A stretch of DNA of 64,000 bases from NCBI GenBank assembly GCA_004565275.1, contig SDOX01000020.1, positions 3,189 to 67,188 on the forward strand, read 5' to 3'. Both the position numbers and the translations under genes were made by a program. The first letter of the stretch is position 1; the number at the start of each line of letters is the position of its first letter. Of this stretch, positions 15,435 through 26,663 are shown piece after piece. A model generated the notes under the pieces. That model was not told the DNA's origin. It saw only the letters and a list, made by a program, of their open reading frames with translations, and did no database searches. Origin of the DNA: Nannochloropsis salina CCMP1776 (Eukaryota; Sar; Eustigmatophyceae; Eustigmatales; Monodopsidaceae).

Positions 15435-18400
15435 CTACGCACCCTTGGATAACGTTGTCTCGCCTTTATCGGCTGCTGCGGCCATCCTTTCTTCCTCCAG
15501 CCTCTCCTCCATCTCCGCCATTTTCCTCCTCAACCTCATGACCTCCGCGGCCAGCGCCTCTGGTCGGGTAGCCGCGCTCAAATCCCTCTCGTCAAAAATG
15601 TAATCATGCTCGTCCCCCTTCCCCTCCGCCCCCTCCCCTCCCCCCACGCTCGCCCCCCGGCCCCGGCGACTCGAGGTGAGAAAGGCGGGCCAGACCGCTT
15701 TGAGAAGGATGTGGAGGAGAAGCAACTGCCCCACGAAGTCTTCCTTGGCGTCTCGGAGGGCGCGAAGGGGCTTGTAGGAGAAGAGGAGGGCCAAGCCGCT
15801 CAGCATCAGCACGTCGGCTACCTTGCGCGCAGGCGGGTGGGCGAGGAGGAGTCCGGCGATGCCGAGAAGGATGAGCAGGAGGAGGATGAGGTCTTTGTAG
15901 AGGCGGGAGGACGGGGAGCCACCGTAGATGCTGTCGCGCCGCGGGACTGGTGGTGGGGGGGGCAAGGAGGGGGAGGAGGGTGAAGGGGCACGCCCGCCAT
16001 ATTCCTTGACACTGGCGAGAGAAAGACTGCTCCCGCTCCCGCTGCTGGTCTGGCTGCTCAAATGTCTGGTTGGGGCAGAGAAAACCGGCTGGAGGCGGCG
16101 GACGAGGCCCACAGTGGCGTGCAAGGCGCACAGGGCCGTAACCAGCACGACCCCCACCTCTGTCGCTACCCCCCAGCGGTCGGTGGCCATCGCCCGCGGG
16201 CGGTTGTTGAGGGGGGGAAAGGCTGCGAAGAGGACGTCCATGGTGGCGAGCGCGAAAGCAAGTTGGCCGATCCGAAGTGCGGAGAGGAGGGGCGGGTGCT
16301 TGTCCGTGATATGGGCCCATCCGCAGAGGCCGAGCGTGAAGAATCCGGCAAGGGCCAGCATGACGATGCAGGCGTAGTTTCCTCGACCCTCGCCCTCCCT
16401 CGCGCACGTGACAGCCAAGTCCACCACCAGCACCGCGCAGATCGGGTCGAGCGCCCGGCGGTGCCGCACCAGGAGCATGTAAGGAGTCAAGAGGAGGCGG
16501 TTGAGGGGGGAGGGATCCGGCCCGACCTCGTCCAGCCCTGCTCCGTACAGCTCCCTTTTGTCCAAGGCTTTCCCCCTCCCCATCACGCCTCCCCCGCCCA
16601 CGTCCTTCCCGGACTGGGTGACGCTGCTGTCCAAGGAGGAAAGCCGGCGCACCACCACCTCCCCTTCCCTCCCTCCCTCCCTCCCTCCCTCCCCCCCCGC
16701 TCTCCGTCCTCCGCCGGAACCGGCTTTGGGAGAGCTGGGCCATGGACAAACCCGCCGCCGCGATGGCTTCCAATTTTCGCGCATTCAATTTGGAAAAATT
16801 GCCCTTGCTTTGCATGCTTTCGCTGAGGCCGCGTCCTTCCCTGCCCATGGGAAGGCTGCTCCACCCGCCTCTTCTGGCCGCCTCCTCCAGGTGGCAGTTC
16901 TGAGGGGCCAGGACGGCGATGATGCGGTAACGCGGAGGGAAAAACCTGACGTGCGACCAGGGGAGGAAGTAGAGAAAGAGCAAGGTGTTGTAAAAAAGCA
17001 TGGCGGCGACGAAGAACGTGAGCTTGAAGGTGAGAAGGGGGGAGGAGAAATTCGAGATGGCCGGGAAGAGGGTCAGGAGGAGGCAGAGGGAGACAAGAAG
17101 ACGGTGGGCAGCAGCTCGCACCATCCGGGAAGGCAAAGAAAGGGAGAGATGGGCGCGGAAACGGTCATAATACTGGCGGCCCTGGACGTAGAAGGCCGCG
17201 GGCATGATCCCGAAGACCACGAAGGCGTTGGTGGAGAGGAGGAGGACGTCGAAGACATGCAGGTGGTTTTCATCGTCGCCCGTCACGTCCAGCTTCAGCA
17301 AGAGGGCACAGTAGGTGACAAGGAGGATCTCGGCCAGGGCAAAGCCTTGCAAGGTGTCGTCGCTCTGCTCCTCGTAGGGCTGGAGCCGCAGGTGCAGGCA
17401 CATGGTCACGGCACAGACCAGACACGCGATGGCCAGCTGGGTCGCGGTCCCGGCTGCGATGAAAATGATCAATCCCGTCAAGAAAAGCTTGCGCAGGAGC
17501 TCGTAGATCTCGAACCACCAGTAACGGCGTCGGTAGGTCTTGTACAGGAAGGAGAGGTTCTCGTCCCAGGGGTGGACGTTCCTTCGATACTTCAAGAGGA
17601 GGAAGAACATGACCGGGATCCCCACGGGGTAAACGGTCAGGGCGAGGACAATCAGGGGCATGTACCGCAAGTAATAGCGGGATCGGCAATCGATGGTGAA
17701 GTCCGACACCAGGTACCGACGCCCGTTGTCGAGGGTACGGCAGTTCACCGCACCGAGGACCACGCGCGAGACGGCCGGGTAGATGAGGAGAATGATCCAG
17801 AACCAGAAGGTGATCATCCGAGACGTGTAGCGTTCCACGGAAAATCGCTCCACATTCTCCTGTTTTTCCAACAGGGTCAATTTGTGCTTGATTTCCAAAA
17901 TCGATTCGTCCTCGTCGTCGTCGCCGGTGGACTCGAAGCTTTGCAGCGTCGGCCCCTCGGTTCGCGCGTGACTCCCTTGGGCACCTGCACCCATGGCCCC
18001 GTCTACTGCCGTTTCTCCCTTCCTTTCCAGTCCACCCGCAGCCCCGGCCGCATTCTCTCTCGGCCCGACCACGCTGTGGCTCTTCTCAGAGCTTATCGTC
18101 ACGATCTCGCCCGAGGAGGATGTCACCCGCTCGCTAAACGTGGCTCTCTTGTGTGCCTTCTGCAGCTGTTGCTGGAGGTGTTGTTGCTGTTGCTGCGGCG
18201 GCGGCGGCGGCGGCAACGGCCGAGAGGATAGGGAGGTCAGTGTCGAGTCGGAGGGAAAGGCGGGGGCGGAAGGGAAGGGGATGGCGGGCAAGATTCTGTC
18301 TTTCTCGCCTTCGTCTGACGACGGACGAGGTGAAAAGATGTCGATGACGGCAGAGCAAACAGCGGGGGAGGCTTGAGGAGGGAGGGCATGCGATGGAGGG

Positions 18401-21400
18401 TAAGACGGGACGCTTATGTCGAAGGGAGGGAGCTGTGAAGCGAGGTGCGGGCGGTGTGGCGCGAACGAGGAAGAAGGCGCCGGGGGGAGCGAGGACTGAG
18501 GGGGCTCTGCAATAAGTGGGGCCTCTGCAATAAGAGGGGGCTCTGCAACAAGAGGGGGCGTCGTGCGGGCCGGAGGGGGAGGAGAAAACCGAGAGGCGGC
18601 CGGCTGAGGGAGGGGGAGGCGCCTGAGCGGGGACGAAGGACGTGGTTGGAGCACGTCCGTGTGTGGATGGGAGGGGGCATAGCTGGTGGCTGCGGGTGAA
18701 GGTGGGCGGGAGGGGACTGCCGCGTGGCGGGACATGACCGAAGCCCAGTCATCCAGGACGGGCGCCGAGGTGTGAGAGGCCAGGAAAGTTGAAGAGGGAG
18801 GTAGGAGAGCCGTGCCAGGGTCATGGCCTTCTGCAGTCGGCGGGGGGGAGGGGGCGCTCGGGGGGGAAACGACTTCCCCGGATTCTTCCTCGATGGTGGG
18901 GATGGAAGACGACCTCCACGTGAGCACCGCGGCGTCCCTCTTCATGTCCCTTGGAGAGTCCGAGGCCGTAGCGACGACACGCGTCCCCGGTGGCGTTTTG
19001 ACTGTCGTACCTTCCGTGCGGTCGAGACTGATTGTATGGGCTCCGTTTTTTGTCGCAGGGAAGGGGATGGCGGCGGCGGAGGCCACAGGGTGACGACGAG
19101 GCCGCCGTCTCAACATTCGGACCGAGATCGCGCGCATCTTCCGGATGAGTTGGTGTTTCATTCGTGCCGATTGCGCCTCCAAGGCTTTGACCACGTCGAT
19201 GTTGCTCGAGACCTTCTTGTGGATGCGCCGGAGGCCCACGGCGTAGAGGACGAGAAGCACGAGGGTGAGAAGGAAAGGTAGGGTCACCGCAACCATAAAT
19301 TCCGCGAAATAGTCCACAGGCTGGACGCACGAGTACGCCATACCCGGTAGATTCAGTATGTTAAGATTTAAAAAACTGAGCATGTGCAAAAATTGTCGAA
19401 ATTCTTGCGGCCAAGGCACCGTGTAGGCGACGTTAAGGGAGGCCAAAATTTGAAAAAAGGTGATGGAGATCTTGGCTTTGCTCCAAATGTCCGGGAGGTC
19501 GGTCAAGTCGGACAGCCGCGAAGCCAGGTGGCGCGAAAGAGAGTTGCTCAGGAAGTAGCTCATGTTCAAATCGCGGGAGAAGGACCGACCTCCTGGCCCC
19601 TCCAGAAAGGAATCTTGGACGCTTTTCACGGCCTCATCAATGTCCGTACCGGGGCGGACAAAGAAGTAGAGCACGATGCTAAAGGCCAAGAAAGCCCCCA
19701 ACACTACAGAGGCGACCAGCGTTTGGATCATTCTCTTGGAGCCGCAAGGGTTGCAAGCCCCACCCCCGTCCCCATAGAACCCGTCCTCACAAATTGCGCA
19801 CAGGGGCCCGCCTTGCAAGTGCCCCTCCGTGCAATTGGAGGAGATTCCTCCCAAGCACACCGACTTGGGATTACATTCGTAGATGCGATAGGTGCTGAAA
19901 TATGGATCAGTGCGGATGGCCTCAGATTTGGACAACGCCTGTCGCCAATACCCTGGGAGGGGCACCGGCAGGAAAACGCCCTGCTGCAGACAGTCGGTGC
20001 CAAGCGGGCAGGGTTGGCAGGGCCTCTTTGAACGCAGCGGTTGATAAGAGCCGAGCGGGCACAGGAAGCATGCTTTCTCCCCATTGCTCCCAATGTCTTG
20101 CTGCTGCTGACCGGGGGGGCAGTACAAGTCGTTCGTCATGCTGGCTGCAATCACTTGCAACTCCATCACCCGCAAGCCCGTGTCTTTCGTGTTCAAGTAG
20201 TCACGGAGCAGGGCCTGCTTCTCCGGTGTCATCAGCCACGTTTGAATCGCAGAACCAATCTTAGCGTTGGCGGCCGTGACGTCCACAGAGACCAGGATCG
20301 AATCCTCTTGGTACACGTCCTCTGACGGATGACGAGCTGCATTACTAGGGGCCAAGGGCGTCTCCATGAGCGTCCTGTCCACGTCCGCGTCTGCCCATCG
20401 GCGGTCTTCCTCTTTGCCTTGATCCCAGAGGGCACCCATTTCGCCGTCGACGTCGATGGAGACGACTTGTTTGCTCGGATTTGGGGCGTAGGCCCGCCCT
20501 TGAAAGCTCACGTTCCAGGATTGGACCGTGGATGCGGTGAGACCAGCCAGGCTGGTGACATTGCAAACGTGCACAGCTTCGTCGGCGATGCTAAGGGTAG
20601 GGTCATATTCCATGGCCCGGAGCAGCACTTGCTCGAAGACGGCCTGTTTGTTCGACCCAAAGCTCTCCAGGCTCTCGCCCGCCAGGAAGAAGACGGCTTC
20701 CACCGTCCGTTGTCCGTAGGAATCCGCGTAGTTGAAGGCGCGGGGGGGGGAGTTGGATTGGTCCGACACAGTCACCAGCATCGGAAGACCCTTTCCCGTC
20801 CCCGGTGGGTACTTGCACGTGATCAGTTGGTGTTCGTAGACCATTTTCACCTCCCGACAGGCCTCCCCCCCTATCGAGACCTCGAGACCCTCCGAGGTGT
20901 GCCCAAAGTTGCGGCCCATGACGACCAGGTCCCCGCCTCCTGTGTTCGCCGTGTCAGGAACAACGGTGACCAGTAGAGGGCCCGCGTACGTGAAGCCAGG
21001 GGAGAGGCTCACCTCGAAACCGCCGAGGCTCACTACGATCGTCAGGTTCTTGCCCACGCCTGGCGGGGTGACGCAGGTGATTAAGTCGTCGGCAATTACC
21101 CGGGCATCGGCACATTCCCACGGCCCCAGCTGCACTTGTGTCAACGTGCCTGCCGGGCCAAAATTGCTTCCCCACAAACTCAACACCTCCTTGCCGCCCG
21201 TGTAGGGCGAGAAGGGCAGGTCCACACTGTACCCGCCGAAGACCGGTAGCGAGACCCGCATCGGCTCGGTCACGTTCCAAGATTTCAGGAGGGGGGAGTC
21301 GTAGACGAAGACCGCCGTCGGACTCGGTTTGCTTGTTTGTCCACCCACAGAGACTTGGACTTGAGCCTCCCCGAGTCCCGGGGGAACGCCGCGGCAGACT

Positions 21401-23541
21401 ACCTCGAAGTCAGAGACCCATACCACTGCCTGGCACGGTGTGTCCTGTATGAGGACCAACGGCTCGAAATCGTCGGCGCCGAAATGCCGACCCAGGATCC
21501 GCAGGTCAAAGCCTCCCCGGGCCATGGTCCCTGTCGTCTCGATGCTGCTGACCACAGGGCGTGCGTAGGAGGCCGCGTTTACCACAGATACGGGCATGTC
21601 TGCCCCTCCTTGTGATATAGTTGCCTGCGCAAGCACATGAGCTCCGACCCCGGCCGTGCTCACGCAAGTGAGGAGAAAAGGCCGTTGGTTCTCGGAGGCC
21701 AACACTGCAGGAAAGGGCATCAGGGCCAAGGACGGAGGAACAGGCATATCCGTTTCACTCGTTGCCAGATCCTGGACCGCGCCCGGCTGGACAGCGAAAG
21801 GGATGGCAGCTACACCACCTTGGGCACTCACAGCGGCCGCTACCACGCCCGGGGCTCTGGCATCCTTCTGAGCCTGGGCCAGGGCGGTGGCGTCTCCGTA
21901 AGGCAGCAAAACCGGGTTCAGGCAGGGGGACAGGCCGACAAAGGCTTCCAGCTCGTAGGGTTGGGAGAGGTCGACGGTCGTCACGTCCAAAGAGAGGGCC
22001 ATGGACACAACCTCCCCCCCCTGAGTGTCGAGGAGAGCGGGCGACACCAGGTAGATTTGTGGCGGGCTCTCCATCACCGAAGTCAACGAGTTTTTGTACA
22101 CGATGTATACACTGGCGTTGGAGGCCACATAGCATCCGATCGCCAATTCTGTCTCATTGTCTCCGTTCAAATCCGGAAGCTCGGCCAGGGATGCCCCGAA
22201 ATTCGTGTTGGCTGGCAGCTGGCTCTCGAACCCTTCGAGACCAGTGGTGATCTTCCGCCACTCCCGGACCATCGGCAAGCCGTCGTCCGTCGCATTCAGG
22301 CCCAAAAATAGGAGGTGAACAGAACCCGCGTTTGGGTTGGCACGACTGTCACCGATGGTACCTACCACCAATTCGGGCACTCCGTCCATATCCAAGTCAT
22401 GGAAGCCAGCCATGGAGGCCCCGAAATAGGCATTCGCCTGCAGACTCGTATCCCCGAAACCGTGCTTGCCCGGGGTAATTTTGCTCGACCCTTTGACAGG
22501 ACTGCCGTCCGCCGGCACCATGCCCCCACCGGCCAACCCCCCCACCGCTTCTCGACCCCCGAGTGGCCGCTGCAGCAAGATAACGTACACAGCGCCGCAC
22601 CCTGGCTGGTACTCCGAGTCCATATACGCCCCTACGGCCATGTCGGGGACGCCGTCTCCATTCAAATCTCCTATGCCTGCAACGGAGGCTCCAAAGGCAT
22701 CGTTGGGGGCCAGAGCAAAGGGAAACCCCGGTGTTTGAGCGCGTAATTTGTACCAGCCCACGATGGGAACGGCGGCAGAGTTTTGCAGAAAGAGAATGTA
22801 GACAACGCCGGCCAATGTGTCCTCTCCATACGCGCCCACGGCAATGTCTCCGACACCATTTCCGTCCACGTCGCCTAGATAAGCCACGGAGGAGCCGAAG
22901 TATGAATTTTGAGCCAGAGTGGCATCAAAACCCCCTTTACCACCCGTGATTTTCACAGAAGATGCCACCGGCGACGCCTGAACACGTTGCATGTACAGCA
23001 AGTAGATGGCACCTGCGTTCAACGCGGATTCATCATCTCCCAGAGCTCCTACCACCAGGTCAGGGACACTGTCGCCGTTAATATCTCCAGCTCCGGCCAC
23101 CGCGGCCCCGAAATAGTCTAAGGCTTGCAGACGGGTGTTGAACCCTCCAGTGCCCGAAGTAATCTTTCGCCAGCTAATCAGCGGATTCACCACATCTTTT
23201 CGCAGGTATAGTATCACAATAGCTCCTGCATTGTTAGCAGTAGTGTCGTCTCCATATGCTCCTAGCACAAGATCGTCTACGCCATTTCCATCCAGATCGC
23301 CGGCGTGGCACAAAGCACTCCCCCGATAATCTTTGCTGTCGCTCGGGCCTAGGTTGACCTTCACAGTTTCTTTCACAATGGGTAATAAAAGTTCATCCTG
23401 CGTAGGATTAATGGGCGGGCCAACACTGGTCCTGATAGTCAACGAGAGCAGCACGAGGAAGAGGAAGGACCAAGGCACGAGCCTTTTTCCCATGCCTCGC
23501 TTCGCCTTGGCCAAGGCAGCAAATGCCGACCAGCAGGACAT
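15435..23541 (-). CDS. giant integrin-like FG-GAP / IPT / Cys-rich / polytopic membrane protein
   Basis: A single exon of about 2,700 codons. Start MSCWSAFAALAKAKRG is followed by a hydrophobic signal (WSFLFLVLLSLTI). Residues 74-480 hold six FG-GAP repeats with Ca-binding loops of the form DLDGNGVDD, as in integrin alpha propellers. Residues 665-930 hold about three IPT/TIG domains (GRHFG, GSNFG, GRNFG). Residues 1137-1267 are Cys-rich and resemble ephrin-receptor/GCC2-GCC3 modules (CPPG…CFLCPLGSYQP…CQPCPLGTDC). About ten membrane helices follow from residue 1267, resembling TRP-like channels of protists, interrupted by a Ser/Pro-rich loop at about 1440-1906. The C-terminal part adds some seven further hydrophobic segments and a coiled coil (EVMRLRRKMAEMEERLEEER). 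The frame moves by +1 at eight C (16691-16698). A surface adhesion or mechanosensory role is an inference from the domains. Confidence 0.85.
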
Positions 23542-24424
23542 GCGCTGCTGCTAAGACATCAAGGGAGGAAAAATTAATAAATTCCAATTCATGGTTCCCG
23601 TCTGCTCGTGTGAAATATAGATATGACGTAAAAGTGAGGTGAGGCTATCGTGCTGCGATAGCAGCGGAGTAGAGGAGAGACATACAGAAATCCCAAAATC
23701 ACGGATACTCTTGTGGTCCCGGGAATTTCAACAATGTTTGAGAACAATATTATCCTTGAAAGCCTTTTTAAGCTTCCTCGTGATAAAAGGAGGCAATTTG
23801 GTGGGAGTGAAATTGCGGGAGGCGTTGTTTAGTGGTTTAAAAGTTTTAAACATGGGCCCGACCAGCCGTTGACTTCGGCATTGCCGGAAGTAGCAAATCG
23901 TTTGGGCTACTTGTTTTGACCTTTACGGGTCCAACCAAATAGAGATAAATTCTCGTACGATGATATGGAATGGTACCATTAGCATATCAAAATGACCTGT
24001 AAGAGAGAGGAGCGTGCAGGAGGGAGAAATACGTACTAGACTTGGGCTACTAGTCTCTATCAGATAAAAACCTAACAAACATCCTGATAGTTTGTAGAAG
24101 AATCCTAGTCCGGCTGTAGAGTCCCGGATAAAATCGAAATAATGTGTTCCTCTCCGTGAACTGCATATTTAAAGTCACAGAGGAGTGAATTGGCCTGGAT
24201 TATAGCAATGTTCAACCTCCTGCTCGGATGGTTAGTCACTGCGCTGTGACACATTTGCGTCAGTCGCTCGTTTCATGAAGTTTAGTGCCTTCTAAATTAT
24301 TCACTTCACATCAAGAAAGACTCCATTTATATTGTAAGCGGGCATGTCACAAATTGCCGCGCTACCGAAGCAAATCGCATTGTTGTTATTTTGTTAGTGG
24401 AGTATCCCCACCGTGTTCGGTTCA
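23542..24424. other. intergenic region with no recognised gene
   Basis: This is a fairly AT-rich spacer between the start of the giant gene and the end of SRP54, both on the - strand. The frame at 23639-23872 shows no protein character. It should hold the giant gene's promoter and the SRP54 3' region. Confidence 0.45.

Positions 24425-26663
<2,239 letters not shown>

Follow-up and report, generated by a model that had tools for sequence, protein, structure and literature searches.

A predicted Nannochloropsis salina protein combining an FG-GAP propeller, an IPT/TIG stalk and an Flc/Pkd2-like membrane region

Results

Organization of the locus

We analysed a window of 64,000 nucleotides from the eustigmatophyte Nannochloropsis salina CCMP1776 (contig SDOX01000020.1, positions 3,189 to 67,188), and in it a minus-strand gene at 15435-23541. 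A previous sequence-only reading had described the product as one large chain, an integrin-like propeller fused to a TRP-like polytopic membrane protein. Coding scores favour a single gene for the propeller-bearing head and the membrane body, and Pfam places FG-GAP, TIG, cysteine-rich and PF06011 matches along it in the order that had been claimed. The features are listed below with window coordinates and strand; residue numbers refer to the main reading frame.

23422..23541 (-), start and probable signal peptide, residues 1-40 (hydrophobic stretch 22-40; signal peptide judged by eye)
22057..23421 (-), FG-GAP beta-propeller, residues 41-495, six blades predicted (Pfam, AlphaFold2, fold matches)
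23209..23322 (-), FG-GAP repeat 1, residues 74-111 (30.2 bits)
22996..23112 (-), FG-GAP repeat 2, residues 144-182 (32.9 bits)
22792..22899 (-), FG-GAP repeat 3, residues 215-250 (26.6 bits)
22579..22695 (-), FG-GAP repeat 4, residues 283-321 (34.8 bits)
22309..22425 (-), FG-GAP repeat 5, residues 373-411 (21.8 bits, just under cut-off)
22135..22200 (-), FG-GAP repeat 6, weak, residues 448-469 (15.2 bits, E 0.02; strands seen in the model)
21562..22059 (-), unclassified region, residues 495-660 (no Pfam family, no significant PDB match)
21316..21558 (-), IPT/TIG domain 1, residues 662-742 (39.0 bits)
20986..21213 (-), IPT/TIG domain 2, residues 777-852 (33.9 bits)
20728..20979 (-), IPT/TIG domain 3, residues 855-938 (47.8 bits)
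20125..20709 (-), juxtamembrane region, residues 945-1139 (no Pfam family at E<=10)
19738..20124 (-), cysteine-rich region, residues 1140-1268, 13 Cys, with Ephrin_rec_like at 1153-1182 (Pfam, Cys count)
19216..19737 (-), first membrane helices, about 1275-1295 and 1419-1437, and a weaker candidate at 1355-1376 (hydropathy)
17827..19215 (-), Ser/Pro-rich loop, residues 1443-1905, probably cytosolic (463 residues, 28.5% Ser plus Pro)
17185..17826 (-), membrane core, residues 1906-2119, six hydrophobic segments (hydropathy, free-energy scan)
17212..17553 (-), match to PF06011 'TRP' (Flc/Pkd2), residues 1997-2110 (profile positions 280-392 of 426)
16954..17115 (-), two further hydrophobic segments, about 2145-2190 (hydropathy, free-energy scan)
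16666..16693 (-), (GGGA)7 microsatellite beside an eight-G run, site of the frame change (coding scores, sequence)
15435..16700 (-), C-terminal part in the +1 frame, five to seven hydrophobic segments and a charged tail (open frame, coding score)

Coding evidence for a single gene

The main open frame (15604-23541, minus strand) is 2645 codons long. In 200 mononucleotide shuffles of this stretch, the longest open frame across six frames had a median length of 203 codons and a maximum of 334. No one continuous frame spans 15435-23541: near 16,700 the coding signal switches from the main frame to +1. A codon score was trained on the first 6.6 kb of the gene, so that blocks above about 16,942 fall inside the training stretch. 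By this score the main frame was best in block 16821-16702 (10.5) and the +1 frame from block 16701-16582 onward (12.8). Two main-frame blocks just before the switch were weak (2.9 and 0.7), no frame was favoured in block 16761-16642 across the repeat, and in block 17181-17062 the +1 frame scored slightly higher yet contains a stop.

Codon scores were also cross-trained, on the head (residues 1-1268) or the body (1269-2259), and applied to the other part. With the head-trained score, in 300-base blocks, the main frame was best in nine of nine downstream blocks as far as 17,038, and the +1 frame in four of four past 16,701. The body-trained score put the main frame first in all 12 head blocks. 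The Ser/Pro loop gave the lowest coding score of the gene (-14.5 in one block), with the main frame still the best of the three. These scores favour one coding unit for head and body; a division into a head gene and a body gene was rejected on them, and they lend no support to separate transcripts. The proposal of one chain at 15435-23541 thus stands as a single coding unit, but not as a single frame.

The two frames may be joined by a short intron, or the repeat may carry an indel; either way a single protein would have about 2,630-2,690 residues. GT-AG splits of at least 40 bases that keep the frame open number 41 at this place, too many to pick one. GGGA/TCCC repeats of five or more units are found at ten other places in the window; the one at 16666-16693 coincides with the frame change. 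At the other end of the gene, the second methionine (residue 17) may be the true start. The upstream same-strand neighbour, at 24330-25874 (-), matches the SRP54 GTPase and signal-peptide-binding domains and is a probable signal recognition particle subunit.

The propeller head

At E<=1 the whole main-frame chain matched six Pfam families: TIG, FG-GAP, FG-GAP_2, TRP (PF06011), FG-GAP_3 and Ephrin_rec_like. The E-values in the head were 9.2e-27 for FG-GAP (five stretches), 1.7e-9 for FG-GAP_2 and 2.4e-6 for FG-GAP_3. When Pfam was run repeat by repeat, FG-GAP was matched in all six repeats of the sequence-only reading, four of them above the cut-off of 22.1 bits, the fifth just below it and the sixth weakly. 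The calcium-loop pattern was likewise found at six sites (residues 82, 153, 224, 292, 382 and 457), but two of these loops (DINGDSVPD and DLNGDNETE) lack the usual glycine. The propeller is probably calcium-binding.

An AlphaFold2 model of the propeller had a predicted local distance difference test score (pLDDT) of 87.2, a predicted template modelling score (pTM) of 0.88 and 24 strands, and its fold matches included integrin-alpha and a six-bladed phytase. Six blades are predicted, a number read off the strand list and not from coordinates. The outcome that the earlier reading had named as refuting it, a propeller and helices predicted as unrelated low-confidence chains, does not hold for the propeller, which is the one of the two that structure prediction covered.

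The stalk

About three IPT/TIG domains had been expected behind the propeller, and three were found (E 2e-28 for the whole chain, three stretches). In phmmer searches this part matched solved IPT domains, a TLP-IPT entry at 35.7 bits and the HGF receptor at 23.3 bits. The regions on either side, residues 495-660 and 940-1145, matched no Pfam family at E<=10 and nothing significant in PDB sequence searches (best E 0.87 and 1.2, respectively). By eye, residues 495-660 could perhaps be guessed to be a divergent fourth TIG domain with an insertion and a Cys540/Cys626 pair. A single-sequence model of residues 940-1145 was not confident (pLDDT 51.9); here our guess, again by eye, is a SEA-like beta/alpha pattern with an insertion. 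The ephrin-receptor-like module that had been read in the cysteine-rich region was recovered at 27.5 bits when the region was scanned alone; in the whole chain it scored 19.3 bits (E 9.5e-4), below the cut-off of 23.1.

The membrane body

Hydrophobic segments past the ectodomain were counted in two ways, with a Kyte-Doolittle window, overlapping windows being merged by eye, and with a crude free-energy scan. The main and +1 frames had ten and seven segments, respectively, by the former and ten and five by the latter, in keeping with the roughly 16 proposed earlier. Eight segments lie up to residue 2119, with a possible ninth (1355-1376) guessed from topology, and more are C-terminal. The Ser/Pro loop, previously put at 465 residues, measured 463 and contains 17 PxxP motifs. 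The basic stretch that follows residue 1437 points to a cytosolic loop; with the head outside, this would require a crossing at about 1355-1376.

The PF06011 match had an E-value of 5e-7 and 29.3 bits in the whole chain, and 32.9 bits when the region was scanned alone (cut-off 28.5). In a chain from which the loop had been excised at a place chosen by us, joined residue 279 meets profile position 280; it is suggestive only that the spacing of the first half of the profile would then fit. At the profile level, no ion-transport or PKD-channel family was found at E<=1 in the main-frame chain or at E<=10 in the membrane pieces. The +1-frame C-terminal part matched no Pfam family above cut-off, and a PDB sequence search with the membrane part gave nothing significant (best E 0.24). 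The label 'TRP-like' holds in that the matching Pfam family is named TRP, but is not supported in the animal sense, the part that matches belonging to the fungal Flc/Pkd2 profile; membership of the animal TRP channels was rejected, as no ion-transport profile was among the families listed.

Relatives of the propeller

Prokaryotic, plasmid, viral, own-genome and solved-structure sequences were compared with the propeller. The best integrin (alpha-5) scored 39.2 bits by phmmer with the whole chain as query, and prokaryotic relatives reached 153.7 bits (best domain) or 256.2 bits (whole sequence) with the propeller as query, figures that measure nearness and are no census, since the prokaryotic loci had been fetched with a piece of the protein or its repeat alignment and the integrins had not. 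The best prokaryotic relative in BLAST was 36% identical over 423 residues. The propeller aligned along its length with all 45 loci compared (41 bacterial or archaeal, four viral), and within the stretches compared none of these had a TIG, juxtamembrane, cysteine-rich or membrane match at E<=0.01. Among 72,556 plasmid records, tblastn matched nine, at 29-35% identity over 38-72% of the query. A first bacterial scan for the whole propeller by way of rare peptides gave no relatives, and none of the membrane or TIG parts were found in viral contigs.

The integrin motif KxGFFxR was not found in the main frame, to which the scan was confined. As the nearest relatives found are prokaryotic, the predicted blades six and this motif absent from the main frame, kinship with integrins is not supported. 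'Integrin-like' is apt for the fold class of the propeller, which is of the integrin-alpha kind, but not as a statement of descent.

Other copies and related proteins in the genome

The 26.5 Mb assembly (103 contigs) was searched, with scoring, exon by exon, of the best candidates only; FG-GAP counts are lower bounds. The window gene was the only PF06011 match found. A recent duplicate was rejected, as queries with PF06011, the membrane part, the C-terminal part and the TIG-to-juxtamembrane part found only the window locus. FG-GAP searches found that locus and at least three further proteins, on contigs 42, 52 and 20:

L063, 2261-4465 (-), further FG-GAP protein
L064, 1619-3583 (+), further FG-GAP protein
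L065, 1773-3800 (+), further FG-GAP protein

In the open frame read, each protein carries a single hydrophobic stretch, at its N-terminus, and nothing polytopic. All three score higher against prokaryotic proteins (190-207 bits) than against the window propeller (108-135). The contig 52 and contig 20 proteins are nearest each other, and L064 and L065 are 44% identical.

Modules of the stalk type were seen at other places in the genome. On contig 93 (L015, 1-3081) a cysteine-rich EGF-like ectodomain, one membrane helix and a protein-kinase domain, as judged by eye, form a receptor-kinase-like plan, with Ephrin_rec_like at 19.4 bits, below cut-off. On contig 73 (L016, 1003-2703) what looks by eye like a vanadium haloperoxidase or PAP2-type phosphatase is followed by a short cysteine-rich stretch, ephrin-receptor-like at 18.6 bits and also below cut-off. 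A TIG domain (42.4 bits) occurs on contig 57 (L011, 886-2778) in a 630-residue frame whose start resembles, by eye, a clamp-loader ATPase; this protein is probably nuclear.

Discussion

Proposed function and alternatives

Because of the domain content and order, the evidence for one coding unit, the confident propeller model and the PF06011 match above cut-off, we tentatively favour a polytopic cell-surface receptor with an Flc/Pkd2-like tension-sensitive calcium pathway, found in one copy in the genome, while holding this reading with rather less than even confidence. A role as a cell-surface sensor is plausible, and so is a function in adhesion or mechanosensing; that the body conducts ions we infer by analogy. 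In such a receptor the head would lie outside the cell, its calcium loops stiffening the propeller, and would bind a wall glycan or other external ligand. Through the TIG and cysteine-rich stalk, ligand binding or wall tension would reach the helices, the membrane body would answer as an Flc/Pkd2-like tension-sensitive calcium pathway, and the Ser/Pro loop might dock cytosolic partners. The analogy for the body is fission yeast Pkd2, which belongs to the family carrying PF06011. Pkd2 is a reported stretch-activated calcium channel and, according to that report, cannot do without its extracellular domain and nine-helix body (PMC11277609).

Several points weigh against the receptor. The PF06011 match covers 113 of 426 profile positions, and excising the loop did not extend it. 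Nine helices would need the crossing at 1355-1376, which neither the hydropathy nor the free-energy scan picked. The ML-like TRP_N domain (PF14558 or PF02221) carried by most FLC proteins (PMC9600462) was not among the Pfam families listed for the chain, and the same source also describes FLC proteins as proposed flavin carriers.

FG-GAP and IPT modules function in binding in animals. One alternative is an adhesion or wall-anchoring protein that uses its propeller and TIG stalk to hold on to the wall or to other cells, its membrane part serving as an anchor and signalling scaffold that does not conduct ions. The best-supported part of the protein is its ectodomain, and the long Ser/Pro loop with its PxxP motifs would suit a scaffold; 15-17 hydrophobic segments and a PF06011 signature, however, exceed the needs of an anchor, and we consider this explanation possible but doubtful. 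Less probable still is that the protein sits in an internal membrane, as an Flc-like transporter or a calcium-homeostasis factor, with a lumenal ectodomain serving folding or sorting. PF06011 is the fungal FLC domain, and Cryptococcus Flc1 has been localised to the vacuole and has an effect on calcium homeostasis (PMC9600462), but FLC proteins are built of an ML-like and a TRP domain and do not resemble a protein with some 1,200 residues of surface-type modules. Very unlikely, in our judgement, is that the main frame simply stops near 16,700 and the +1-frame part at 15435-16700 is a separate gene or pseudogene remnant. The frame does change there and an ATG at 16784 opens the +1 frame, but this ATG falls where the main frame still scores best, the microsatellite is flanked on either side by raised coding scores (the two weak main-frame blocks nearby apart), and head and membrane core share one uninterrupted frame with matching codon preference.

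The favoured receptor has a stronger form, which we think unlikely: a one-chain outside-in mechanosensor whose calcium propeller, bacterial in type and of integrin-independent origin, sits on an Ig-like stalk and exerts direct gating on an Flc/Pkd2-type calcium pathway. In the current view, animal cells couple integrins to separate mechanosensitive channels for this task; if this form were true, one protein would do the job of both. Should the body be tension-sensitive like Pkd2, a single protein would connect an external ligand with a calcium signal in a way open to genetic tests, and the gene could help to show whether mechanosensing coupled to adhesion evolved outside animals on a different head, one of bacterial type. 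The modules are known singly, and it is their joining in one protein that seems unusual, within the prokaryotic, plasmid, viral, own-genome and solved-structure sequences compared. The finding also bears on a 2011 survey that reports no seven-repeat propeller in 47 unicellular eukaryote genomes (PMC3192720), since a six-repeat propeller here sits on a polytopic body.

Comparison with known systems

The architecture of the window protein was not recognised in the parts of the open-licence literature covered by our search. With bacterial and archaeal multi-repeat FG-GAP proteins it has the repeat type and the calcium loops in common. With integrin alpha it shares the propeller fold, according to the predicted model, but integrin alpha has seven blades against the six predicted here and a single membrane helix against 15-17 hydrophobic segments; at the profile level, integrin thigh and calf domains were not among the six Pfam families at E<=1 in the main frame. 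Membership of the integrin-alpha family was rejected on blade count, the polytopic body and the lack of KxGFFxR in the main frame. The integrin-alpha-like CBN77719.1 of the brown alga Ectocarpus is described with seven blades, four calcium motifs and a low-complexity C-terminus (PMC3192720). By that description it too is a stramenopile protein with an FG-GAP propeller; it differs in having seven blades rather than six, and the description, as far as available, mentions no polytopic body.

Animal and algal TRP and PKD channels, and with them oomycete PKDRR proteins (PMC7399828), are likewise proposed calcium-entry membrane proteins, some with extra domains, but they carry a PKD channel domain and none is listed for the window protein. 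A survey of diatom calcium channels reports TRP channels in all stramenopile genomes examined (PMC11085791); the available passages of that survey and of the PKDRR paper do not mention the present architecture. Choanoflagellates and other relatives of animals are reported to have glutamate-type receptors in which ephrin-receptor-like modules precede a polytopic body (PMC12716839), and the coupling of a cysteine-rich module to such a body therefore has precedents.

The nearest counterpart of the body is the Flc/Pkd2 family. PF06011, though named TRP, is the domain of the fungal FLC family and has very limited identity with human TRP channels (PMC9600462). The window protein has in common with this family a PF06011 match above cut-off and a multi-helix body behind an extracellular domain, and is set apart from it by the large FG-GAP/TIG head, the Ser/Pro loop and the extra hydrophobic C-terminal block. 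As for its cysteine-rich module, such modules ahead of multi-helix bodies are widespread in protists.

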